Source: an uncultured Bacteroidota bacterium (lineage in GTDB: Bacteria > Bacteroidota > Bacteroidia > Flavobacteriales_D > Sanyastnellaceae). From it: 64,000 nucleotides of DNA. The position numbers and the translations under genes are program-made. Below the pieces are notes generated by a model. The model was given only the letters and a program-made list of their open reading frames with translations, had not been told where the DNA came from and made no database searches. Positions within the stretch are counted from its first letter, which is position 1. Every line of letters begins with the position of its first letter. Location of the stretch: positions 1 to 64,000 of the forward strand of contig CAIZGX010000012.1 of the NCBI GenBank assembly GCA_903932685.1, read 5' to 3'. This document shows positions 51,095 through 61,163 of the stretch, in pieces.

Positions 51095-53989
51095 TTATTT
51101 GATAATGATCGTCTTTGTCCAAAGATTCGTGTCGTTTGAAACTTTACATACATAAGTTCCAACAGCCAATGAAGGTAAAGAAACTTGATTCATTCCTGCG
51201 TTCAAATATTCGGTGTGAACCAATTGTCCTTGCGCGCTGTAAATATTCAAAATTGATTTTCCAGATTGAACTGGAACACCTACCCAAAGGTTGTATGATG
51301 CAGGGTTCGGATAAACGCTCATGTCATTGTTCGTCTCATCTTCAACACCAACCAAACTCCATGTTGCCATGAATTCTTGAAGGTAAAGATTCGCAATGCG
51401 CGCATCGTGAACAACAACAGTGTTTTCGTCGTTAGTTGTTTGTGCTGCGCTGCTCCAGTTGTGACTTCCAGTAAGAACTGTAGGGTCTGAATCCAATGTG
51501 CTGTGATCGACAATGCAATACTTGTGGTGAAGATCATAAGGAATCGCTTCGTGTGAACGAATGTCTTGTCCTGCTGCTTGCAAGTATGCAAACTCTGAAG
51601 ATGGATCTGATGTTTGCTCCATCATACCTCTTACTAAAACAAGGAATAAATCATCTTCAGCGATAATAGCATCGGCAATATCTGCGCGTGTGAAAGCAAG
51701 AATTGCGTAATCTAAATTGGTATCTGTCGTTTGCATGGTCTTGATAATTGCACCGTTTGCGTTGTCGGTAGGAGAGAAATAACTTTCAACTTTAATGTCG
51801 TTAGGACCCATTACGTATTGCAATGGCGTGTTGTTTGTTTTACTAGCACCAAATACCCCATTCGGATTTCCCGGCTGTGCGCCAGATCCACCCCACATCT
51901 CTTCAAACTCTAAGCGATATCCGCGGGCAATACTTTGGTCTTGGAAGATGATAATGTTGTTGAAGTCGTTATACATGTTGTTGTCTGTCCAGTTGGTAGA
52001 CCCTGTAAACACCCATGAATTCGCAGCTGAATCTGGATCAACAACAATGAATTTGTTGTGCATGATTCCGGTCCCAGAAGTGTTAATTCGCTCAACAATA
52101 GGAATATTTGGATCTAAAAGGGATTGACCTAGTTGAGCGGTAGAGCCATCGGCAACAATGCGCACTTGCACACCAGCGTTATATCTGTTGTTGATTGCAT
52201 TGGCAATAGTCACATCATCTGTGAAGTTATAGATTGCAATGTCAACGGCTTGTTGAGCGCGAAGAATGTATGCTGCGATAGTGTCGTTTGTTAACGTACC
52301 CAAAGAGATTGCGTTTTCGATTGTTGCATAACTATTATCTACTTGACGCGTGAAATAAGTACGAATTTCACCAGAACTTAAACTCTTTGTAGCGTATGGA
52401 CGAACACTGCTTGTGCTTGAACCATCAACGTTTGAAGAAGTTACAGATGCGTAGTAAATGGTTCCAGGCTGTAAGCCAGGGATATTCACAACGTGACTCG
52501 TTACACTTTCATTGATGTAAACTGTTTGACCCAATGAAGGTGTTAAACCATAATTCACTTCACTGTCTCCACCATTGTTGGTTGTCCAGTTTAAATCGAA
52601 AGACGACGTTGTGATATTGGTTTGCGTAACTGTGCCAATAATTGCAACACCTGGAGGAAGAATGAAATCATTTTCATCGCGAGGAAGGATTTGGTATCCA
52701 GCATCGAAAGGCGCAGTTGCGTCGAATTGCGAAACAATTCCGACTAGCGTAATTGCGCTTGCTGGAAGATTCGTTCCAACTAAAACACTTCCAGCGCGAA
52801 TGTAGATAACACCCGATTGTCCGTTAGCTAAATAAGTGTATGTAGAGTTTGCTGAGATTACAGAACCAGCCAAATCGAAAACAACGTTATCGACTGTTAC
52901 CAACTCACCCTCGTAATCTTCAGCAATCATATTTGGAGTAACCAATTGATTTGTAGGAAGAGTATTGTTTGATGAGTTTACAGATACAGCTGTTAGTGTT
53001 GGTCCTATTTCAAGTAGACCGTTGAATTCGGTTATTACACCTGAAACGGTAACGAGGTCTCCACGTAATGGAGCTGTTGGCCAAGCAGCCCAATCAACTC
53101 CTGGATAAACAGCAATACCTGCTTGGCTGTCTTGTATGTAACGTACAGAGCTGCCCATTTCAGTGCCATTCGTAACAATACCAGTTATCGATACAGCTGC
53201 TCCAACTCCTGCAATACGAGCGGCTGATATGGTACCTCCAGCAATTGGAGTTCCTGCGCAGTCGCAATTGGCATCGTACGTGTCACCCGTGGTAGTTGCA
53301 ATGTTATCATTACAAGCATCTCCAGGAAATGCACATGAACCATTGTCGGTAACTGCAAGCGAGTTGTAATTGCATGCAGTGTTGTCCATACATCCGGCAA
53401 TCGTTCCGCTATTCGAAGCACCTGGAGTAGGACTTTGAGCAACGTATGCTGAAGTATTGAATGGCGCACCACCGTCCGGAATGCGAGAAGAAGAGTTGTT
53501 TAATGCTGCTGTAGCAATCGTTTCGTCTGCCTGAGGCTGACCAGGAGTAAGCACAGTTATAAGGTTAGTTGCAGCAGCATCTGCTGTTCCGTATACCAAA
53601 GCATCTACCAATCCAGTTGCGCTAACTGCTGTGCCGTTTGGCCAAGCCGCCGCAGCAGCAGTGTATATAGCAATGCCGTCTGCTCCGTTTTGTAAAGTGT
53701 TACCGGTGAACGTAACATTCACATTAGCAACACCGGCATTTCCGACAACAAAATATCCCGAGGCAGGAATAACGTTTCCAGAAAGGTCAATGGTTTTGTA
53801 AGAAGTAGCAGCGGCTCCGTTGAACCAAACCATAACCATTCCGTTCAATGATTGTCCTGGAGCACCATACAATTCAATGAATTCAGCAGCGTCGGTTCCA
53901 ACTTGATCGGCATCAACTTCGTTAATAACAACCTGTGCTTGAGTAGCTCCAAAGAGAAGCGCTAACAAGAGTGTATAGATGTATTTCAT
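51095..53989 (-). CDS. secreted phospholipase-D-fold protein with lamin-tail, DUF5689-like and T9SS type-A domains
   Basis: 964 residues from ATG 53989. Signal peptide to about 18 (TQAQ), lamin-tail domain about 19-130, cysteine-rich GCMDNTACNYNS repeat near 199, DUF5689-like OB-type region about 250-445, fibronectin type III about 450-535, then a two-lobed phospholipase D domain with HKD motifs at His644-Lys646-Asp651 and His821-Lys823-Asp828, and a T9SS type-A sorting domain about 890-964 (VYPNPASYNL). PLD enzymes cleave phosphodiesters of lipids or nucleic acids; the lamin-tail plus PLD layout recalls secreted nucleases. Downstream of a TonB receptor gene, probably in one transcript. Confidence 0.87.
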   Translation of the reverse strand: MKYIYTLLLALLFGATQAQVVINEVDADQVGTDAAEFIELYGAPGQSLNGMVMVWFNGAAATSYKTIDLSGNVIPASGYFVVGNAGVANVNVTFTGNTLQNGADGIAIYTAAAAAWPNGTAVSATGLVDALVYGTADAAATNLITVLTPGQPQADETIATAALNNSSSRIPDGGAPFNTSAYVAQSPTPGASNSGTIAGCMDNTACNYNSLAVTDNGSCAFPGDACNDNIATTTGDTYDANCDCAGTPIAGGTISAARIAGVGAAVSITGIVTNGTEMGSSVRYIQDSQAGIAVYPGVDWAAWPTAPLRGDLVTVSGVITEFNGLLEIGPTLTAVSVNSSNNTLPTNQLVTPNMIAEDYEGELVTVDNVVFDLAGSVISANSTYTYLANGQSGVIYIRAGSVLVGTNLPASAITLVGIVSQFDATAPFDAGYQILPRDENDFILPPGVAIIGTVTQTNITTSSFDLNWTTNNGGDSEVNYGLTPSLGQTVYINESVTSHVVNIPGLQPGTIYYASVTSSNVDGSSTSSVRPYATKSLSSGEIRTYFTRQVDNSYATIENAISLGTLTNDTIAAYILRAQQAVDIAIYNFTDDVTIANAINNRYNAGVQVRIVADGSTAQLGQSLLDPNIPIVERINTSGTGIMHNKFIVVDPDSAANSWVFTGSTNWTDNNMYNDFNNIIIFQDQSIARGYRLEFEEMWGGSGAQPGNPNGVFGASKTNNTPLQYVMGPNDIKVESYFSPTDNANGAIIKTMQTTDTNLDYAILAFTRADIADAIIAEDDLFLVLVRGMMEQTSDPSSEFAYLQAAGQDIRSHEAIPYDLHHKYCIVDHSTLDSDPTVLTGSHNWSSAAQTTNDENTVVVHDARIANLYLQEFMATWSLVGVEDETNNDMSVYPNPASYNLWVGVPVQSGKSILNIYSAQGQLVHTEYLNAGMNQVSLPSLAVGTYVCKVSNDTNLWTKTIIIK

Positions 53990-54032
53990 TTTTCTTTCTA
54001 TTATTCTTTTTTTAATTTTCTTAATTGCCTGA

Positions 54033-56909
54033 TTAGAATGTGGCTGATAAAGATACGTTGAACCATCTACCTTGCCCAAAGAAAACACCTGCGGAAGAGG
54101 AGTCGAAATTGTAAGCCTTGTTATTGTACAATGCATTCAAGTCGTTGTTTCTTGCATCTGTAATAAATACACTATTCAACACATTGAAAACGCTTCCTCT
54201 CAAATCCCAGCGCACGCCATTAAACTCTTTGCCATAACCAGCGTGAAATTCTAGCGTTCCGTATGAAGGAATTTCCCAAGACTCTCTTCCGGCATTTGCT
54301 CCTTTCAATTCGAAAGGATTCATATCAGAAAAATAGCGATCGAACCACGTATATCTGGTTTTTGCGTAAGCACCGTTTTTCCATTCATAACGTAACATGG
54401 CACCCAATTGCGTTTGAGCAGCATCACTCACGTGAACACCATTTGCATCGTATGTTACACTGTACTGCTCACTGTCAGGATTTCCAGGATCTGAATAAAC
54501 CGGATTTCCGTTGTCGTCAAAAACGAAAATAGTATCAGAAGACGTCCAGATCCAATCACCAAAAGAAGCCAAGCCTTCAAAAGTTATACGGTCATTTATT
54601 TTGTACGCAAAATCTAATTCAGCACCTTGGTGGCGAGCATTCATACCGCGAATATTCACCGTAATGTTTGAGGTCGGATCTTGCGGGTCAGGAACAGAAA
54701 GACCGTATGGAAATGGTTTGTTTTTCCAAGTCGTGTGATACAGATTGACGTTGAATGAAAACTTCTTCGACTTGTAATTCCATCCATTTTCAAAGCTAGA
54801 AATAACTTCGTTCTCAATGGCGTTGAAACGCTCATTCGCGTTGGTGTATATCTGACTGAATAAAGGAGCCTTATTCAAATAACCTGAGTTTAAAAAGACA
54901 GCTAAATCACGCGTTAGATTGTATTTTAATCCAGCTTTTACAGTTGCTGTTGGACGGTAATACCAACCCGTGCTTTGAAATTCTGATCCAGCCATGTTAC
55001 TCGTTAAAGTTTGCCCACCAACAATTGTAGTATCTGAAACAAGAGCAATGGCATTGCTCTGATATAAATATCCAACAGGAACATCAACCCCATCAACATT
55101 ATAAACTTTCGGGCGGAAATAATCTACTCGTTTGTAACCGGTAGTTGCTACTGAAGCACTGAAAAACCCAGAAATTTTTTCATCTTGATATTCCAGTTGC
55201 CCGAACACCCCACCCCAACGAATGAATGCGTCATTATTGAAATCTATAACATCGCCCTCTCGCTTAATCAAATTAGGATCATTGTAATTAACTGCTGTTC
55301 GCGCAATAATGTAATCGGCACCCATTAGGTCAATTATCTTTCTATAGTGAGAACCTTTGTATGTTCTTAAATCAACGCCACCGGCGAAATTCCAGTTATC
55401 GTTAAATTTTTTGTTGAAGGTGCTCAATGCGCCGTACCAAGAATGTTCATTCATGCTTGCTTTCACGTAATTGGAAACGGCATAGCGTTCGGTAGAACTA
55501 ACAAGTGTATTTACATTGTAATCAGGTCCTGAAAACAAGGGTGGTTTGGCACCTACGTTGGAGTCATAGAATGCCTGCATGTTCACACTTCCATCGGCCA
55601 AATAATCGTTGGCGGTAATGTTGTTGTTCCAGCGTGTTCCACCACCTCTTCCATAGGAGGCATAAACTACCGTGCTTATGAACGACTTTTCATTCAGTGT
55701 CCAAACATCTTTGAATGAGAATTGTGGCTTGTGATAAAAATTCACGCGTCCGTTAAATTGTTCTTCAGCTTGAATGTTTGTGCGTTGTCCGTTTACAAAA
55801 TCGTAGCGTGTTAAATTACCAACATCAGGGTTGTAATTAATGCCGCCGTTAAAAATCGATACTTCAGTATTTGGAGTCGGATTGTAAGTTGAAGGGGCTC
55901 CTACTGCAGAGGCAGTTTCGGCACTATAGAGGGAAATTGCTTCAGACCTTAAGCGCTGACCATGTTCTTGCGGTGCGCCCAATCCGTATAAACTCAAATG
56001 GTGATTGCCTGTCACTTTTTCAATTTTACCGTAATAGAAAAATCCTTTGGTGAAGGTTCCATCAACCCACCCACTGCCTGTTTTGAATGAAGTAGCCAAA
56101 GAAAAAGACCAACCTTTTTTTGTTTTACCTGAATTGAAAGCGAATGAAGTTCTTGAGAAAGCACCGTATGCATATTCTTGTCGAAGGCGTACGCTTCGCT
56201 TCGCATCAATTCCGCGCGTAATAATATTCATGGTTCCCCCAACTGCGGGAATAACCAATTTCGAAGCTCCTAATCCGCGTTGAATTTGTGTGGTCTGAGT
56301 AGCTAAATCCAAACCGAACCAATTGCTCCAATAGACTGTTCCGTTTTCCATATCGTTTACCGGAACACCGTCCAACATAACAGCAACGTTGTTTCCAGAA
56401 AATCCGCGAATGGTAACGCGCGCATCTCCGTCGCCACCACCTGCGCGTGTTGCGTAGGTTCCAGGTGTTGTGTTCGCTAGAGTGGCTAATTCTCTTCCCG
56501 CCAATTCTTCTTCAATTCGTTTTAATCCGATGTTCGAAAAAGCGACAGGAACCGCTCTTCCAACAGCAATGTCAGCAGAAATTACAATTTCTTTTTGTGT
56601 GGATTGAACAAGATCGAAATCTATCGAGTATTCTCTTTTCGTTACGGAGATTTTCTTTTTCACTTCTTCATAACCAACTGCGGTAATGATGAATTCATAT
56701 TCTCCAAATGGGAGTGAAACAGAGAACTTACCAGAAGGATCAACGGCCTGCCCCTTTTCTTTGTTCGCCCAAAGAACGAAGGCAGAAGGAAGAGTCTCTC
56801 CTGATAATGCATCGCGAACAGTTCCGCTTAAAACTCCTTCCTGCGCATGGCTTTCAGAGACAATGAAAAGAAGCGAAAGAATTAAAAAGAATGATTTTAA
56901 GATTCTCAT
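54033..56909 (-). CDS. TonB-dependent outer-membrane receptor
   Basis: 958 residues from ATG 56909 (the earlier TTG is less likely). Signal peptide to about 22 (SHAQ), CarboxypepD-regulatory-like domain about 25-105 (LSGTVRDALSGETLPSAFV), plug about 125-235 (LANTTPGTYATRAGG, IRGFSGNNVAVMLDGVPVND, KLVIPAVGGTMNIITRG), then a large barrel ending NVSLSATF with terminal Phe, as recognised by the barrel assembly machinery. It is neither SusC (no SusD) nor a clear siderophore type. Located 43 bases upstream of the PLD gene, which could produce its ligand. Confidence 0.9.
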   Translation of the reverse strand: MRILKSFFLILSLLFIVSESHAQEGVLSGTVRDALSGETLPSAFVLWANKEKGQAVDPSGKFSVSLPFGEYEFIITAVGYEEVKKKISVTKREYSIDFDLVQSTQKEIVISADIAVGRAVPVAFSNIGLKRIEEELAGRELATLANTTPGTYATRAGGGDGDARVTIRGFSGNNVAVMLDGVPVNDMENGTVYWSNWFGLDLATQTTQIQRGLGASKLVIPAVGGTMNIITRGIDAKRSVRLRQEYAYGAFSRTSFAFNSGKTKKGWSFSLATSFKTGSGWVDGTFTKGFFYYGKIEKVTGNHHLSLYGLGAPQEHGQRLRSEAISLYSAETASAVGAPSTYNPTPNTEVSIFNGGINYNPDVGNLTRYDFVNGQRTNIQAEEQFNGRVNFYHKPQFSFKDVWTLNEKSFISTVVYASYGRGGGTRWNNNITANDYLADGSVNMQAFYDSNVGAKPPLFSGPDYNVNTLVSSTERYAVSNYVKASMNEHSWYGALSTFNKKFNDNWNFAGGVDLRTYKGSHYRKIIDLMGADYIIARTAVNYNDPNLIKREGDVIDFNNDAFIRWGGVFGQLEYQDEKISGFFSASVATTGYKRVDYFRPKVYNVDGVDVPVGYLYQSNAIALVSDTTIVGGQTLTSNMAGSEFQSTGWYYRPTATVKAGLKYNLTRDLAVFLNSGYLNKAPLFSQIYTNANERFNAIENEVISSFENGWNYKSKKFSFNVNLYHTTWKNKPFPYGLSVPDPQDPTSNITVNIRGMNARHQGAELDFAYKINDRITFEGLASFGDWIWTSSDTIFVFDDNGNPVYSDPGNPDSEQYSVTYDANGVHVSDAAQTQLGAMLRYEWKNGAYAKTRYTWFDRYFSDMNPFELKGANAGRESWEIPSYGTLEFHAGYGKEFNGVRWDLRGSVFNVLNSVFITDARNNDLNALYNNKAYNFDSSSAGVFFGQGRWFNVSLSATF

Positions 56910-56993: not shown

Positions 56994-57911
56994 TTACTTG
57001 ATGAAGTTTTGACGATTGATTGTTCCGTTTTCGGATATTACTTCAATCGTATACGCTCCTTTTGAAAGCATGTTTGTTTGAAGACGTGTCATGCGATCTA
57101 ATATTGTTCCGTTCATGAATACAACGCGACCGGTGTTGTCGAAAATACGTATTGAACGAATAATGCTTGGAGAAACTACATTCAAGATATCTCCAGTAAC
57201 TGGATTAGGATAAAGTGAAATTGAACGCTCTACGTTTTCAGTAACGCTTACGTTGCAATCGCACGTGTGCGCACCAAGAAAAGTGAATGTATTTGCAGGC
57301 AATGTATCGTATTGCGCGAAAACATCGAACGTAGATGGATTCATTGTAACACCAGAAGTCACGTTAGATTTTCTAATTTGAGTGTGGTCTGTTGTTGCGT
57401 ATAGAGTTGTTCCTGAAGCATCAGTTCCATAAGCGCTCCAACCACCGAAACCAGTTCCTTCGCCGATTCTACCGTAAAGGTCAATTAGCGTTTGACCATT
57501 ATCAGCAACAATAGCAATTGCGTCGTTTCCGTTGAAATACATTGGCCATACCCCATTGTCGTATGTTGGATTGATGAATACATCTGCAGCTGCAGCTAAT
57601 TCATCCCAAACAGGGGCTTCTAAGCCAGTACCTGCAGGGTCTTGTTTGTCAAGAACAACGACAAGAACATCATGCGCAGGAATAGAATATCCGTCTAATA
57701 ATGCAATGCTTCCATAAGAAGTACTTCCGTTTGAAAAACGAACCAAGCCTATTCCGTTAAGATTAACAGTGTTTGCAGTAGGGTTATAAATTTCAACCGC
57801 TTTGTTGTTGCTCCATCCTTCAATCACTTCAGATATGAAGATTTGATTGCATTGAGCTTGAGCAGCGAATAGAGATAGAACAGATAAAGAGAGGAGTAAA
57901 AGTTTTTTCAT
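56994..57911 (-). CDS. secreted lamin-tail protein with T9SS type-A sorting domain
   Basis: 305 residues. Signal peptide to about 19 (AAQAQ), then a lamin-tail-like domain about 22-215 (IFISEVIEGWSNNKAVEIYNPTANTVNLNGIGLVRFSNGSTSYG) and a T9SS type-A C-terminal domain about 228-305 starting SLYPNPVTGDILNVV. It is exported and cleaved or anchored at the surface. The lamin-tail domain type resembles that in the PLD protein of this region. A TAnnTTTG element stands 17 bases before the ATG. Confidence 0.88.
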   Translation of the reverse strand: MKKLLLLSLSVLSLFAAQAQCNQIFISEVIEGWSNNKAVEIYNPTANTVNLNGIGLVRFSNGSTSYGSIALLDGYSIPAHDVLVVVLDKQDPAGTGLEAPVWDELAAAADVFINPTYDNGVWPMYFNGNDAIAIVADNGQTLIDLYGRIGEGTGFGGWSAYGTDASGTTLYATTDHTQIRKSNVTSGVTMNPSTFDVFAQYDTLPANTFTFLGAHTCDCNVSVTENVERSISLYPNPVTGDILNVVSPSIIRSIRIFDNTGRVVFMNGTILDRMTRLQTNMLSKGAYTIEVISENGTINRQNFIK

Positions 57912-57928
57912 GCCATTTAATTTTGAGC

Positions 57929-57936
57929 CAAATATA
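57929..57936 (-). promoter_or_regulatory. -7 element of lamin-tail T9SS gene
   Basis: TATATTTG on the minus strand, 17 bases before the ATG at 57911. No -33 element at the usual distance was found. Confidence 0.45.
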
Positions 57937-58232
57937 TTCTACAATTCGCTTAAACATGTAAGAACAACATGAAAAGAATGTTAAAAGATTCGAACCCTTC
58001 CACTCGGATATTCTTGGTGTTTGATGAATTCAGGCTTCATCTTAGCTCAGCTCATGAATAATTACTTTTTTCGCCATGTTGAAATTCTTAGTATTTAATA
58101 ATGTTATTTAGTAAATTGCTGATATTGTTCAATGTAATAACCCAGCAGTGTTGAGATTGATAAGTTTTTCAGATAAAAAAGCATGTTCAGGCAACTTTCT
58201 GAAACAGAATGTTATCAATAAAACGATGAAGT
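57937..58232. other. intergenic stretch before ECF sigma gene
   Basis: With the promoter above, this is the only gap above 300 bases (57912-58232) in the window. I see no open frame with a credible start. It contains a small perfect hairpin, GATGAA 58023-58028 with TTCATC 58036-58041, and is AT-rich near 58080-58140. It separates divergent genes and probably holds regulatory sites of the sigma operon; nothing firmer can be said. Confidence 0.5.
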
Positions 58233-58757
58233 ATGAGCGATAGCGAATTGGTTTCAGAATGTCTCAAGGGAAAATCGTCCGCACAAAGGACCCTGTTTCA
58301 ATTGCATTCTGGAAAAATGTTCGCAGTCTGTCTGCGGTACATGGGAAGCACCATGGAAGCAGAGGAGGTATTGCAAGAAAGCTTCATTAAAGTTTTTGAA
58401 AAGCTAAAGCAATGGAAGGGCGACGGTCCTCTGGGGGGTTGGATTAGAACAATTGTTGTGAATACCGCGCTAACCCGTATAAAGAACAACAAGAAATTTC
58501 GACTCGACAAAAACATTGATGAAGCCGTATCACTTTCCGACAACGGAGAAGATCAATTGGAAGCCTTGCAGGCAGAAGATCTGATGAAGTTAATTGCGCA
58601 AATGCCCGATGGGTATAAGACGGTATTTAACTTGTTTGTTGTGGAAGGATATGGACACAAAGAAATTGCCGACCTAATGGAAATTTCCGAAAGCACTTCA
58701 AAAACACAATTTTTAAAAGGTAAAAACTGGTTAGTGAAAAGAATAAATGAGCAATAA
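58233..58757 (+). CDS. ECF-type RNA polymerase sigma factor
   Basis: 174 residues. Sigma region 2 about 10-85 (AEEVLQESFIKVFEKLKQWKGDGPLGGWIRTIVVN) and region 4 about 115-170 (LMKLIAQMPDGYKTVFNLFVVEGYGHKEIADLMEISESTSKTQFLKGK) with the HTH; regions 1 and 3 are missing, as in ECF factors. It would redirect RNA polymerase to a small regulon, likely its own operon. It overlaps the next gene by 11 bases, the position where an anti-sigma factor is usually found. Confidence 0.93.
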   Translation: MSDSELVSECLKGKSSAQRTLFQLHSGKMFAVCLRYMGSTMEAEEVLQESFIKVFEKLKQWKGDGPLGGWIRTIVVNTALTRIKNNKKFRLDKNIDEAVSLSDNGEDQLEALQAEDLMKLIAQMPDGYKTVFNLFVVEGYGHKEIADLMEISESTSKTQFLKGKNWLVKRINEQ

Positions 58758-59760
58758 GTGGAACAATATCATTCGTGAAAAGCTTGAATCTCATGAGGTT
58801 CCAGCAGACCACTTGTGGAATAACATTTCGCAAAATATTCCTCAATCTTCTTCTTTTTGGAAGCCTTGGATGACAAACGCTGCCATCGGAACTGCAGCAA
58901 TTGCAACTTCCGCAATCATTTATTTCAACTCTCCGAAATCACTTCAACCAATTGCACAGACAACTGAGCAGAAGAGCGAAGAGGTTGGATTAGATACTCT
59001 TTCAAGCACTACTCAACCTGTTGAGAATTCTTCTTCAGAAGTTAATCCTCAGATCATATTTGGAGGTATTCCTGACGACATCATATCGGGTTATGTTTGG
59101 GAATTTCCTGAACCGGATTCGACTAAGGCAGCTGAAGCCTCAATAAAGAGAAATTCAGAGATTGTTGCAACTATTGACGATACTCCCATTTCAAACCCTT
59201 CGGAAAACAGACATGTAACGGTTTTTACAGAAAAAGAAGAACTAACCAATTCATTCACCGCGGTTGTTTCGAATGCCGAGAGTCTGAGGTATTTCTTCTT
59301 TGGAGCCGCTGAAAATGCTGACTCGTACGTATGGAATTTCGGCGATGGATTCGACGGACAAGGACAGTCTATTGCTCACGAATTCACGGAAGAAGGAACA
59401 TATACAATAAAGTATTTAGTTTCAAGAGGTGAAGAAGTTATGGTTGAAGAGAAAACCATTGAGGTTTATCGTCCAGCAAAACTTTCACCAGTAACAGCGT
59501 TCGCACCTGGCTTTGATGGCAAGAACGATGTGTTCGATGTGTTATACAACGGACGAAACATTAGCGAAGTTGTCAATTTTGAAATCACAGATGCGAACGG
59601 TAGAAAGGTTTACCAATCAGGTGGACAATCAGTCTGGGATGGAAAAAACATGAATGGCGAATTATGTCAGCCTGCTTTTTACTACTGGCTCATCGAATTC
59701 AAGGACCGTCAAGGCAACTTGAAATCTCAAACAGGCTCTATTCGCATATTCGCCGAATAA
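58747..59760 (+). CDS. membrane protein with PKD and gliding-type C-terminal domains in anti-sigma position
   Basis: 337 residues. Residues 1-41 are cytoplasmic (KLESHEVPADHLWNNISQNIP, reminiscent of short anti-sigma N-termini of Bacteroidota), one membrane segment about 42-60, a disordered acidic linker, a PKD domain about 170-242 (WNFGDGFDGQGQSIAHEFTEEGTYTIKYLV), and a CHU_C/gliding-motility type-B domain about 250-337 (FAPGFDGKNDVF..WDGKNMNGELCQPAFYYWLIEF). There is no cleavable signal, so the C-terminal domain here may act as a tethered extracytoplasmic module. Coupled to the ECF gene. Confidence 0.78.
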   Translation: MSNKWNNIIREKLESHEVPADHLWNNISQNIPQSSSFWKPWMTNAAIGTAAIATSAIIYFNSPKSLQPIAQTTEQKSEEVGLDTLSSTTQPVENSSSEVNPQIIFGGIPDDIISGYVWEFPEPDSTKAAEASIKRNSEIVATIDDTPISNPSENRHVTVFTEKEELTNSFTAVVSNAESLRYFFFGAAENADSYVWNFGDGFDGQGQSIAHEFTEEGTYTIKYLVSRGEEVMVEEKTIEVYRPAKLSPVTAFAPGFDGKNDVFDVLYNGRNISEVVNFEITDANGRKVYQSGGQSVWDGKNMNGELCQPAFYYWLIEFKDRQGNLKSQTGSIRIFAE

Positions 59761-59813: not shown

Positions 59814-61163
59814 ATGGCAAAGACTAAAACTTCATTTTTCTGTCAAAGTTGTGGTGCGCAAAGTCCGAAATGGCTTGGCAAATGCCCTTCTTGTAACGAA
59901 TGGAATACAATAGTGGAAGAGGTGGTGAACCGCGATTCGAACACTTCGAAAATTCGCATCAAACCCAACGCGCAACCGAAATCCATTTCAGACATTGAAA
60001 TTGAAGAACGCAAGCGCTTTCCTTTAATAGATGGTGAGTTGAATCGCGTGTTAGGTGGAGGAATAGTTCCGGGTTCTTTAATTCTTTTTGGAGGAGAGCC
60101 GGGCATTGGAAAGTCTACCTTGCTTTTGCAAATGGCCCTTCAACAATTAAACTTCACGGTCTTGTATGTATCGGGTGAAGAAAGCGAAGAGCAAATTCAA
60201 ATGCGCGCGCAACGTCTTGGGTTCGACAATCCGCGTTGCATGGTGCTTATGGAAACTTCCGTTGATCAAATTCTCCATCATTTGAATGAAATGAAACCGA
60301 ACATTGTGGTTATCGATTCCATTCAAACCCTTCAAAGCGAGAGCGTAGAAAGCGCGCCAGGTAGTGTTTCTCAAGTGCGCGAATGCACCTTGCAATTGAT
60401 GAAGTATGCGAAGGAAACGCATACCCCCATATTTTTAATCGGACACATTACGAAAGAAGGAAGCCTCGCAGGTCCGAAAGTGTTGGAGCACATGGTCGAT
60501 ACCGTTCTTCAGTTTGAAGGAGATCGTCACCACATCTATCGCATTTTGCGTTGCCATAAGAACCGCTTCGGTTCAACCCATGAATTGGGTATCTATGAAA
60601 TGTTAGGTTCAGGGCTCAAGGCCGTTGAAAATCCGAGCGATATACTTATCGATTCAAGCACCGAGCACCTCAGTGGTTCGGCCATTGCAGCCGCCATGGA
60701 AGGCGCACGCCCCATGATGATGGAAATACAAGCGCTCGTAAGTACAGCGGTGTATGGAACGCCTCAGCGAAGCACAACAGGATTCGATTTACGACGATTG
60801 AATATGTTACTTGCTGTATTGGAAAAGCGATGCGGATTCCGATTGGGAATGAAAGATGTGTTTTTGAATATAGCAGGTGGAATTAAGATTGAAGATCCCG
60901 CGTTGGATTTAGCTGTGATCTCTGCGATTCTTTCGAGCAACGAAGACATAGCCATTACCCGAAAGGCCTGTTTCTGTGGGGAAGTAGGACTAAGTGGTGA
61001 AATCCGTCCGGTTTCAAGATTGGATCAACGCATTCAAGAAGCGGCGAAATTGGGCTTCGAAAAAATCTATGTTTCTTCCTTCAATAAAATTCAAGCGTCC
61101 GCTGCAATTCAAGTTATTAAAGTTGGAAAAGTAGAGGAACTCTTTTCAGAAATATTCGCATAA
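59814..61163 (+). CDS. radA: DNA repair protein RadA
   Basis: Branch-migration helicase of recombination, 449 residues. N-terminal C4 zinc finger with Cys10, Cys13, Cys24 and Cys27; RecA-like ATPase with Walker A GGEPGIGKST at 93-102 and Walker B IVVIDSIQT near 165-173; the RadA-specific KNRFGST near 246-252; and a C-terminal Lon-protease-like domain without its active site. Length normal. It ends just before a strong hairpin shared with the convergent bacilliredoxin gene. Confidence 0.96.
   Translation: MAKTKTSFFCQSCGAQSPKWLGKCPSCNEWNTIVEEVVNRDSNTSKIRIKPNAQPKSISDIEIEERKRFPLIDGELNRVLGGGIVPGSLILFGGEPGIGKSTLLLQMALQQLNFTVLYVSGEESEEQIQMRAQRLGFDNPRCMVLMETSVDQILHHLNEMKPNIVVIDSIQTLQSESVESAPGSVSQVRECTLQLMKYAKETHTPIFLIGHITKEGSLAGPKVLEHMVDTVLQFEGDRHHIYRILRCHKNRFGSTHELGIYEMLGSGLKAVENPSDILIDSSTEHLSGSAIAAAMEGARPMMMEIQALVSTAVYGTPQRSTTGFDLRRLNMLLAVLEKRCGFRLGMKDVFLNIAGGIKIEDPALDLAVISAILSSNEDIAITRKACFCGEVGLSGEIRPVSRLDQRIQEAAKLGFEKIYVSSFNKIQASAAIQVIKVGKVEELFSEIFA

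Follow-up and report, generated by a model that had tools for sequence, protein, structure and literature searches.

A 64,000-nucleotide stretch of a Bacteroidota contig (the window) contains a gene for an ECF sigma factor whose 3' end overlaps a second gene, and the two form a real, conserved pair of the sigma/anti-sigma type rather than an isolated oddity. We consider it probable that the pair encodes an autoregulated ECF sigma factor and a tethered anti-sigma factor similar to those of the Dma (dual membrane-spanning anti-sigma) type, which are described as having an outer-membrane beta-barrel tail (PMC13088901), except that the barrel is replaced by a CHU_C domain, in this case together with a PKD domain, that docks at or near the outer membrane. 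The gene pairing, the domain order, the homology of the N-terminus, the conservation of the promoter and the purifying selection were all computed here, while we infer sigma binding, topology, docking partner, signal and release mechanism.

An ECF sigma factor gene and its overlapping partner

The features of the locus are as follows.

58190..58217, + strand: ECF promoter predicted to be autoregulated, GGCAACTTT-N15-ATCA; it begins 43 bp ahead of the start codon of the sigma gene
58233..58757, + strand: ECF sigma factor gene with regions 2 and 4, 174 aa (Pfam Sigma70_r2 and Sigma70_r4_2 over cut-off)
58747..59760, + strand: gene for a predicted tethered anti-sigma factor of Dma-like type, 337 aa, overlapping the sigma gene by 11 bp
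58747..58845, + strand: predicted cytoplasmic two-helix anti-sigma domain, residues 1-33 (AlphaFold2, alignment, profile match to barrel-type relatives)
58870..58926, + strand: single membrane segment, residues 42-60 (hydropathy)
58933..59241, + strand: disordered, fast-evolving tether, residues 63-165 (pLDDT, identity to G005, G006 and G008)
59242..59478, + strand: PKD domain, residues 166-244 (Pfam PKD_4; model matches solved PKD domains)
59479..59757, + strand: CHU_C domain, diverged and lacking the R[WY]G of cargo, residues 245-337 (Pfam, TIGR04131, motif and tree comparison)

Both regions of the sigma protein score above the curated Pfam cut-offs, Sigma70_r2 with 47.5 bits and Sigma70_r4_2 with 46.2. 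Among the NCBIfam matches listed, only the model of the ECF superfamily clears its cut-off, and identity to 26 relatives ranges from 46 to 96%. From N- to C-terminus, the second protein consists of a 41-residue stretch preceding the hydrophobic segment, one membrane segment, a disordered tether of ~100 residues, the PKD domain and the CHU_C domain. An earlier note on this DNA had described both the 11-base overlap, which the open reading frames at 58233-58757 and 58747-59760 bear out, and a short N-terminus with a single membrane segment and PKD and CHU_C domains outside, a layout confirmed by Pfam and hydropathy.

The second protein was searched for in 120 related genomes (E <= 1e-12), 41 of which had a match, and loci were built for the best 30 matches, including the window's own and leaving out the remaining 12 match rows. 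A homologous sigma gene is located directly upstream in 28 of these 30 best-match loci; the two genes overlap by 1-41 bp in 27 of the 28 and are 4 bp apart in the other. Of the two loci lacking an adjacent sigma gene, one (L039) is a fragment at the end of a contig and the other (L040) has a generic long CHU_C protein. Among the aligned second-gene proteins, CHU_C was found in 27/27 and PKD_4 in 26/27 (E up to 0.1). Compared with three genomes of the same genus (G005, G006 and G008), the sigma factor is 94% identical and the second protein 76-81% identical overall, with 94-100% identity in residues 1-33, 90-94% in the PKD domain, 88-89% in the CHU_C domain and 49-55% in the tether, while identity to the more distant G007 is lower in every part. 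Both the N-terminus and the CHU_C domain are under purifying selection.

CHU_C and PKD domains are typical of surface proteins. The presence of both would fit a second gene encoding an exported surface protein, one that overlaps the sigma gene by chance and has no regulatory role. This is highly improbable given that the overlap is conserved across genera and families, that the cytoplasmic two-helix region of the protein is conserved and includes an invariant Trp, that the protein is homologous to barrel-type proteins that likewise follow sigma genes, and that the cargo signature is absent. The anti-sigma role proposed in the earlier note is instead supported by the conserved overlap, by the two-helix N-terminus with its membrane segment and by a promoter of the autoregulatory type.

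The N-terminal domain, membrane segment and tether

In the AlphaFold2 model, the N-terminal helices span residues 2-15 and 20-30, and W24 within the second helix is invariant in the alignment of relatives. The predicted membrane segment at residues 42-60 is rich in Ala and Gly and has a best 19-residue Kyte-Doolittle mean of 1.34, which is modest yet the highest in the protein; AlphaFold2 does not draw it as a helix. The pLDDT is <50 across most of residues 35-164, and the tether has a median length of 111 aa in proteins with a PKD domain and 142 aa in those without. A search of the same genome gave no further copy of the N-terminus. The Hx3Cx2C motif of class I zinc anti-sigma (ZAS) domains is absent from the cytoplasmic domain, the sole Cys of the protein being residue 307, and no FecR domain was matched in Pfam and NCBIfam scans of the protein (E up to 1). 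No known anti-sigma fold appeared for the N-terminus in the fold-search lists, which are barely a test of this region.

Relatives ending in an outer-membrane barrel

Using the sigma alignment, we collected the 80 best named loci, nearly all of which are labelled Bacteroidota, with one record labelled Treponema. A downstream gene is available for 76 of these. Its product carries CHU_C in 39/76 cases (E < 1e-8), eight of which also have PKD, and the CHU_C-tailed variant is common in Flavobacteriales. The other 37 comprise 25 long proteins (350 aa or more) and 12 that are shorter or cut. OMP_b-brl_2 was matched by 21 of the 25 long proteins (E up to 0.01), the first member scoring below the curated cut-off, whereas the seven scanned of the 12 short or cut proteins yielded no convincing domain. 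Five Cytophagales-type loci (L134, L145, L150, L163 and L178) encode a similar N-terminus and membrane segment with no recognisable C-terminal domain.

When the N-termini of the CHU_C type (18 sequences) and the barrel type (20 sequences) were aligned as profiles, hhalign returned a probability of 98.2% and an E-value of 3.9e-14. The profile score on a rerun was 56.4; shuffling all columns 60 times gave at most 12.5, and 60 further shuffles in which the membrane part was left intact gave at most 22.7. By profile comparison, then, the two-helix N-terminus is homologous to the N-termini of Bacteroidota proteins with an outer-membrane beta-barrel at the other end. The predicted structure of one barrel-type relative (L131) has two helices, a membrane-type helix at residues 50-79, a disordered region and barrel-like strands. 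The barrel-type relatives compared are named Bacteroidota records, mostly derived from metagenomes, and we call their loci Dma-type by architecture alone, not by a match to the Dma1/2 sequences of B. thetaiotaomicron. With that definition, the closest known relatives of the second protein are best read as Dma-type anti-sigma factors, which changes the interpretation given in the earlier note.

The PKD and CHU_C tail

AlphaFold2 modelled the PKD and CHU_C domains as two beta-sandwiches with pLDDT mostly >90. PKD_4 is matched over residues 190-240 (37.2 bits, over the Pfam cut-off), and the model aligns with solved PKD domains at Z of about 10-11 in a fold search. Many beta-sandwiches that bind ligands are also among the matches of the PKD part, and the protein might be an ordinary single-membrane anti-sigma factor, in which the periplasmic Ig-like PKD and CHU_C domains bind a ligand such as a glycan, peptidoglycan or a misfolded protein and thereby trigger proteolytic release, with no outer-membrane docking. 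The shorter family members from Cytophagales and others, seven of which were scanned and have no recognisable C-terminal domain, would fit such an arrangement. However, the tethers are long, as their median lengths illustrate, and the barrel-type relatives imply a tail located at the outer membrane, and thus we regard the ordinary arrangement as a somewhat doubtful alternative to an outer-membrane-docked, Dma-like anti-sigma factor.

The CHU_C domain scores 38.1 bits over residues 251-333 against a Pfam cut-off of 27, whereas the protein reaches just 20.3 bits with TIGR04131, the NCBIfam model of type-B sorting domains, which has a cut-off of 35. A fold search with the CHU_C half returned matches to Ig-like folds in general, PorU (6za2) ranking 18th. 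A short signature, R[WY]G, which was defined in the present analysis and not taken from the literature, is present in 43/45 cargo CHU_C domains and in 0/66 anti-sigma CHU_C domains. The model used to gather the cargo domains was itself derived from the anti-sigma ones, so this sample is biased toward the most anti-sigma-like cargo. On a careful CHU_C tree, the cargo and anti-sigma labels change four times, compared with a mean of 35.1 when labels are shuffled. A quick tree had placed 61 of the 66 anti-sigma CHU_C domains in one group, which the careful tree did not keep. The anti-sigma labels are thus strongly clustered on the tree, and we do not assert monophyly; a single origin, which is compatible with the starred branches, was found in 0% of bootstrap trees and was not adopted. 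The CHU_C domain of the window protein is more likely a docking or sensing domain than an export signal. Elsewhere in the same genome, on contig C56, a 1195-aa open frame (L018) has a CHU_C-like C-terminus that also lacks R[WY]G and sits on a long branch of the tree; a match to an ECF-type sigma factor lies ~2 kb from it.

A predicted promoter is conserved upstream of the pair

The sequence CAAC[CT]TT-N15-[AG]TC is present upstream of the sigma gene in 26 of the 27 relative loci with a readable upstream region, and the strict form GRCAACTTT-N15-ATCA in 20 of the 27. This shared motif is indicative of autoregulation. Among the named loci, the looser of these two forms precedes 29/39 CHU_C-type pairs, compared with ~0 in shuffled sequence and with just 3/25 of the long non-CHU_C pairs. 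Across 71 genomes of the family, there are 43 exact sites, 19 of which are at the sigma locus (in 19 genomes); the 24 located elsewhere compare with 9 in reversed-pattern controls. In the window's own genome, the exact motif has a single site, at the sigma locus. Allowing up to one mismatch gave 5 sites versus 13 in reversed-pattern controls and revealed no further credible site, and another looser version gave 6 versus 8. Since no credible site was found in this genome beyond the pair's own, we claim no regulon beyond the operon, and a regulon defined by the promoter motif was rejected because the looser versions reach only the control level.

Gene neighbourhood and the type IX secretion system

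Same-family relatives often have the pair placed after a giant gene ending in CHU_C and/or before a gene of ~1180-1380 aa that also ends in CHU_C, after which comes radA. The latter CHU_C gene is missing from the pair's locus in the window's genus, and the giant gene, which is found ahead of the sigma gene in genus relatives, is additionally missing there in the window's species. The first 500 aa of the giant protein have no match in the window's own genome (96% complete) and do have matches in G001 and G004. In L056, the giant gene has a homologue (39% identity) of the window's lamin-tail gene upstream of it, which makes a deletion in the window's species likely. In the interval 56994-58232, the promoter region is now adjoined by a minus-strand lamin-tail-domain gene with a T9SS type A tail.

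The radA (sms) gene, at 59814-61163, directly follows the pair, and in many same-family relatives it comes after the pair itself or after the CHU_C gene downstream of it, a lineage-wide linkage without an obvious reason. In one relative, the gene just downstream of the pair (L054:5057-8707, minus strand), one of those of ~1180-1380 aa, encodes NIDO and CHU_C domains; its product is likely a surface protein, and it may be cotranscribed with the pair. Within the window, 51095-54136 (minus strand) encodes a large protein that is predicted to be secreted and has a T9SS type A tail; it matches PLD-like and fn3 domains and, weakly, the lamin-tail domain, and is possibly a surface nuclease.

Of 37 CHU_C-type named loci with readable neighbours, 6 have a cargo-type gene within two genes of the pair and 31 do not. 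For this reason, and because the window's species lacks both CHU_C genes at the locus, regulation dedicated to a cargo protein was not adopted as the main explanation. The genome encodes SprA, a core part of the T9SS, which makes a T9SS link feasible. No PorP/SprF-like gene was recognised by eye beside the pair among the listed open reading frames. The earlier note had proposed that an export-type domain became part of a surface- or T9SS-linked signal receptor. That a signalling protein has recruited a domain of the CHU_C type is supported, whereas the T9SS link is a possibility and not a finding, because the domain is diverged, lacks R[WY]G and falls short of the 35-bit cut-off. On this proposal, the CHU_C tail would act as a cargo mimic that enters the T9SS translocon or docks there, with secretion status controlling the sigma factor. 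Such a sensor would account for the CHU_C domain in all 27 aligned relatives, for the encoded SprA, and for the CHU_C-ending surface-protein genes that adjoin the pair in same-family relatives and occur within two genes in the six named loci, and it has a precedent in the reported influence of the CTD protein PorA upon PorXY-SigP (PMC7712824). Nevertheless, the complete absence of R[WY]G from the anti-sigma CHU_C domains, the low TIGR04131 score and the lack of an adjacent cargo gene at most CHU_C-type pairs elsewhere make it unlikely.

Proposed mechanism and significance

In the Dma-like arrangement that we favor, the short two-helix cytoplasmic domain of the anti-sigma factor would hold the sigma factor, the protein would cross the inner membrane once, its disordered tether would reach through the periplasm, and the PKD and CHU_C-type tail would dock at or near the outer membrane. 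If stress on the envelope or on surface assembly disturbed this dock, the sigma factor would be set free and would then transcribe its own operon. A CHU_C tail could plausibly replace a built-in barrel by docking in trans, because type-B CTD proteins are described as binding PorP-like outer-membrane barrels (PMC9143113). With R[WY]G missing, any partner or site of the tail should differ from that of cargo, and the idea that the tail uses the cargo docking site is weakened.

We tentatively suggest a broader scheme, in which Bacteroidota combine one conserved inner-membrane anti-sigma head with exchangeable outer-membrane tails, the CHU_C domain of Flavobacteriales clasping a separate barrel or the T9SS anchoring machinery. 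If true, the cell would read the state of surface-protein export or anchoring directly through an anti-sigma factor. The same head may also account for a large part of the anti-sigma class that seems "missing" from Bacteroidota, in which a class I partner is reported near only 6% of ECF sigma factors and other classes are suspected (PMC7406223). The Dma work provides one such further class, described by its barrel; the window locus and its relatives, having a Dma head with a different, export-related tail, would widen that class and point to a way, open to testing, in which the assembly of surface proteins could govern transcription. No description of an anti-sigma factor with a CHU_C domain was found in the openly licensed papers searched.

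Comparison with known systems

Class I anti-sigma domains are reported to average 101 residues, with zinc-binding members carrying Hx3Cx2C (PMC7406223); the N-terminus studied here is shorter and lacks this motif. Its short two-helix layout, as predicted from a single-chain model, resembles that of class II (CnrY) in the same account (PMC7406223), a likeness of helix layout. A T9SS-associated ECF/anti-sigma pair with SM6 promoters is described in F. psychrophilum (THC0290_1774/1773; PMC9723704), but its -10 box is CGT, versus ATC/GTC at promoters of the window type. In Porphyromonas gingivalis, PorXY-SigP is reported to control T9SS genes (PMC7712824, PMC4800418) and likewise brings an ECF sigma factor and a CTD protein into one signalling theme; there, however, SigP is activated by a two-component system, with PorA as a surface protein of its own (PMC7712824), whereas the window pair has the CHU_C domain inside the likely anti-sigma factor itself. 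T9SS type B CTD proteins such as SprB and PG1035 (PMC9143113) have in common with the window protein a Pfam CHU_C domain with FxPNxDGxND-like and WDG-like motifs, as read from the alignments made here. The window protein differs from them in lacking R[WY]G, in scoring below the TIGR04131 cut-off and in its anchor, a membrane segment near the N-terminus that is preceded by 41 residues.

Closer parallels come from barrel-tailed systems. In Phocaeicola vulgatus, a sigma gene is followed by that of a predicted periplasm-spanning anti-sigma factor, and the reported induction of this pair by the toxin BcpT hints at an envelope stress signal (PMC9308784); its anti-sigma factor ends in a barrel, unlike the window protein. 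For Dma itself, whose sigma partners belong to ECF21, the phenotype of a dma2 mutant is reported to depend on Das2 (PMC13088901). Judged against that description, the window protein is likewise encoded downstream of an ECF sigma gene, has an N-terminal anti-sigma domain homologous to that of barrel-type relatives, and combines one membrane helix with a long disordered tether and C-terminal extracytoplasmic beta-structure, which is PKD plus CHU_C instead of an outer-membrane beta-barrel. Thus, every testable feature of Dma other than the barrel is present, and we call the protein Dma-like rather than filing it as Dma.
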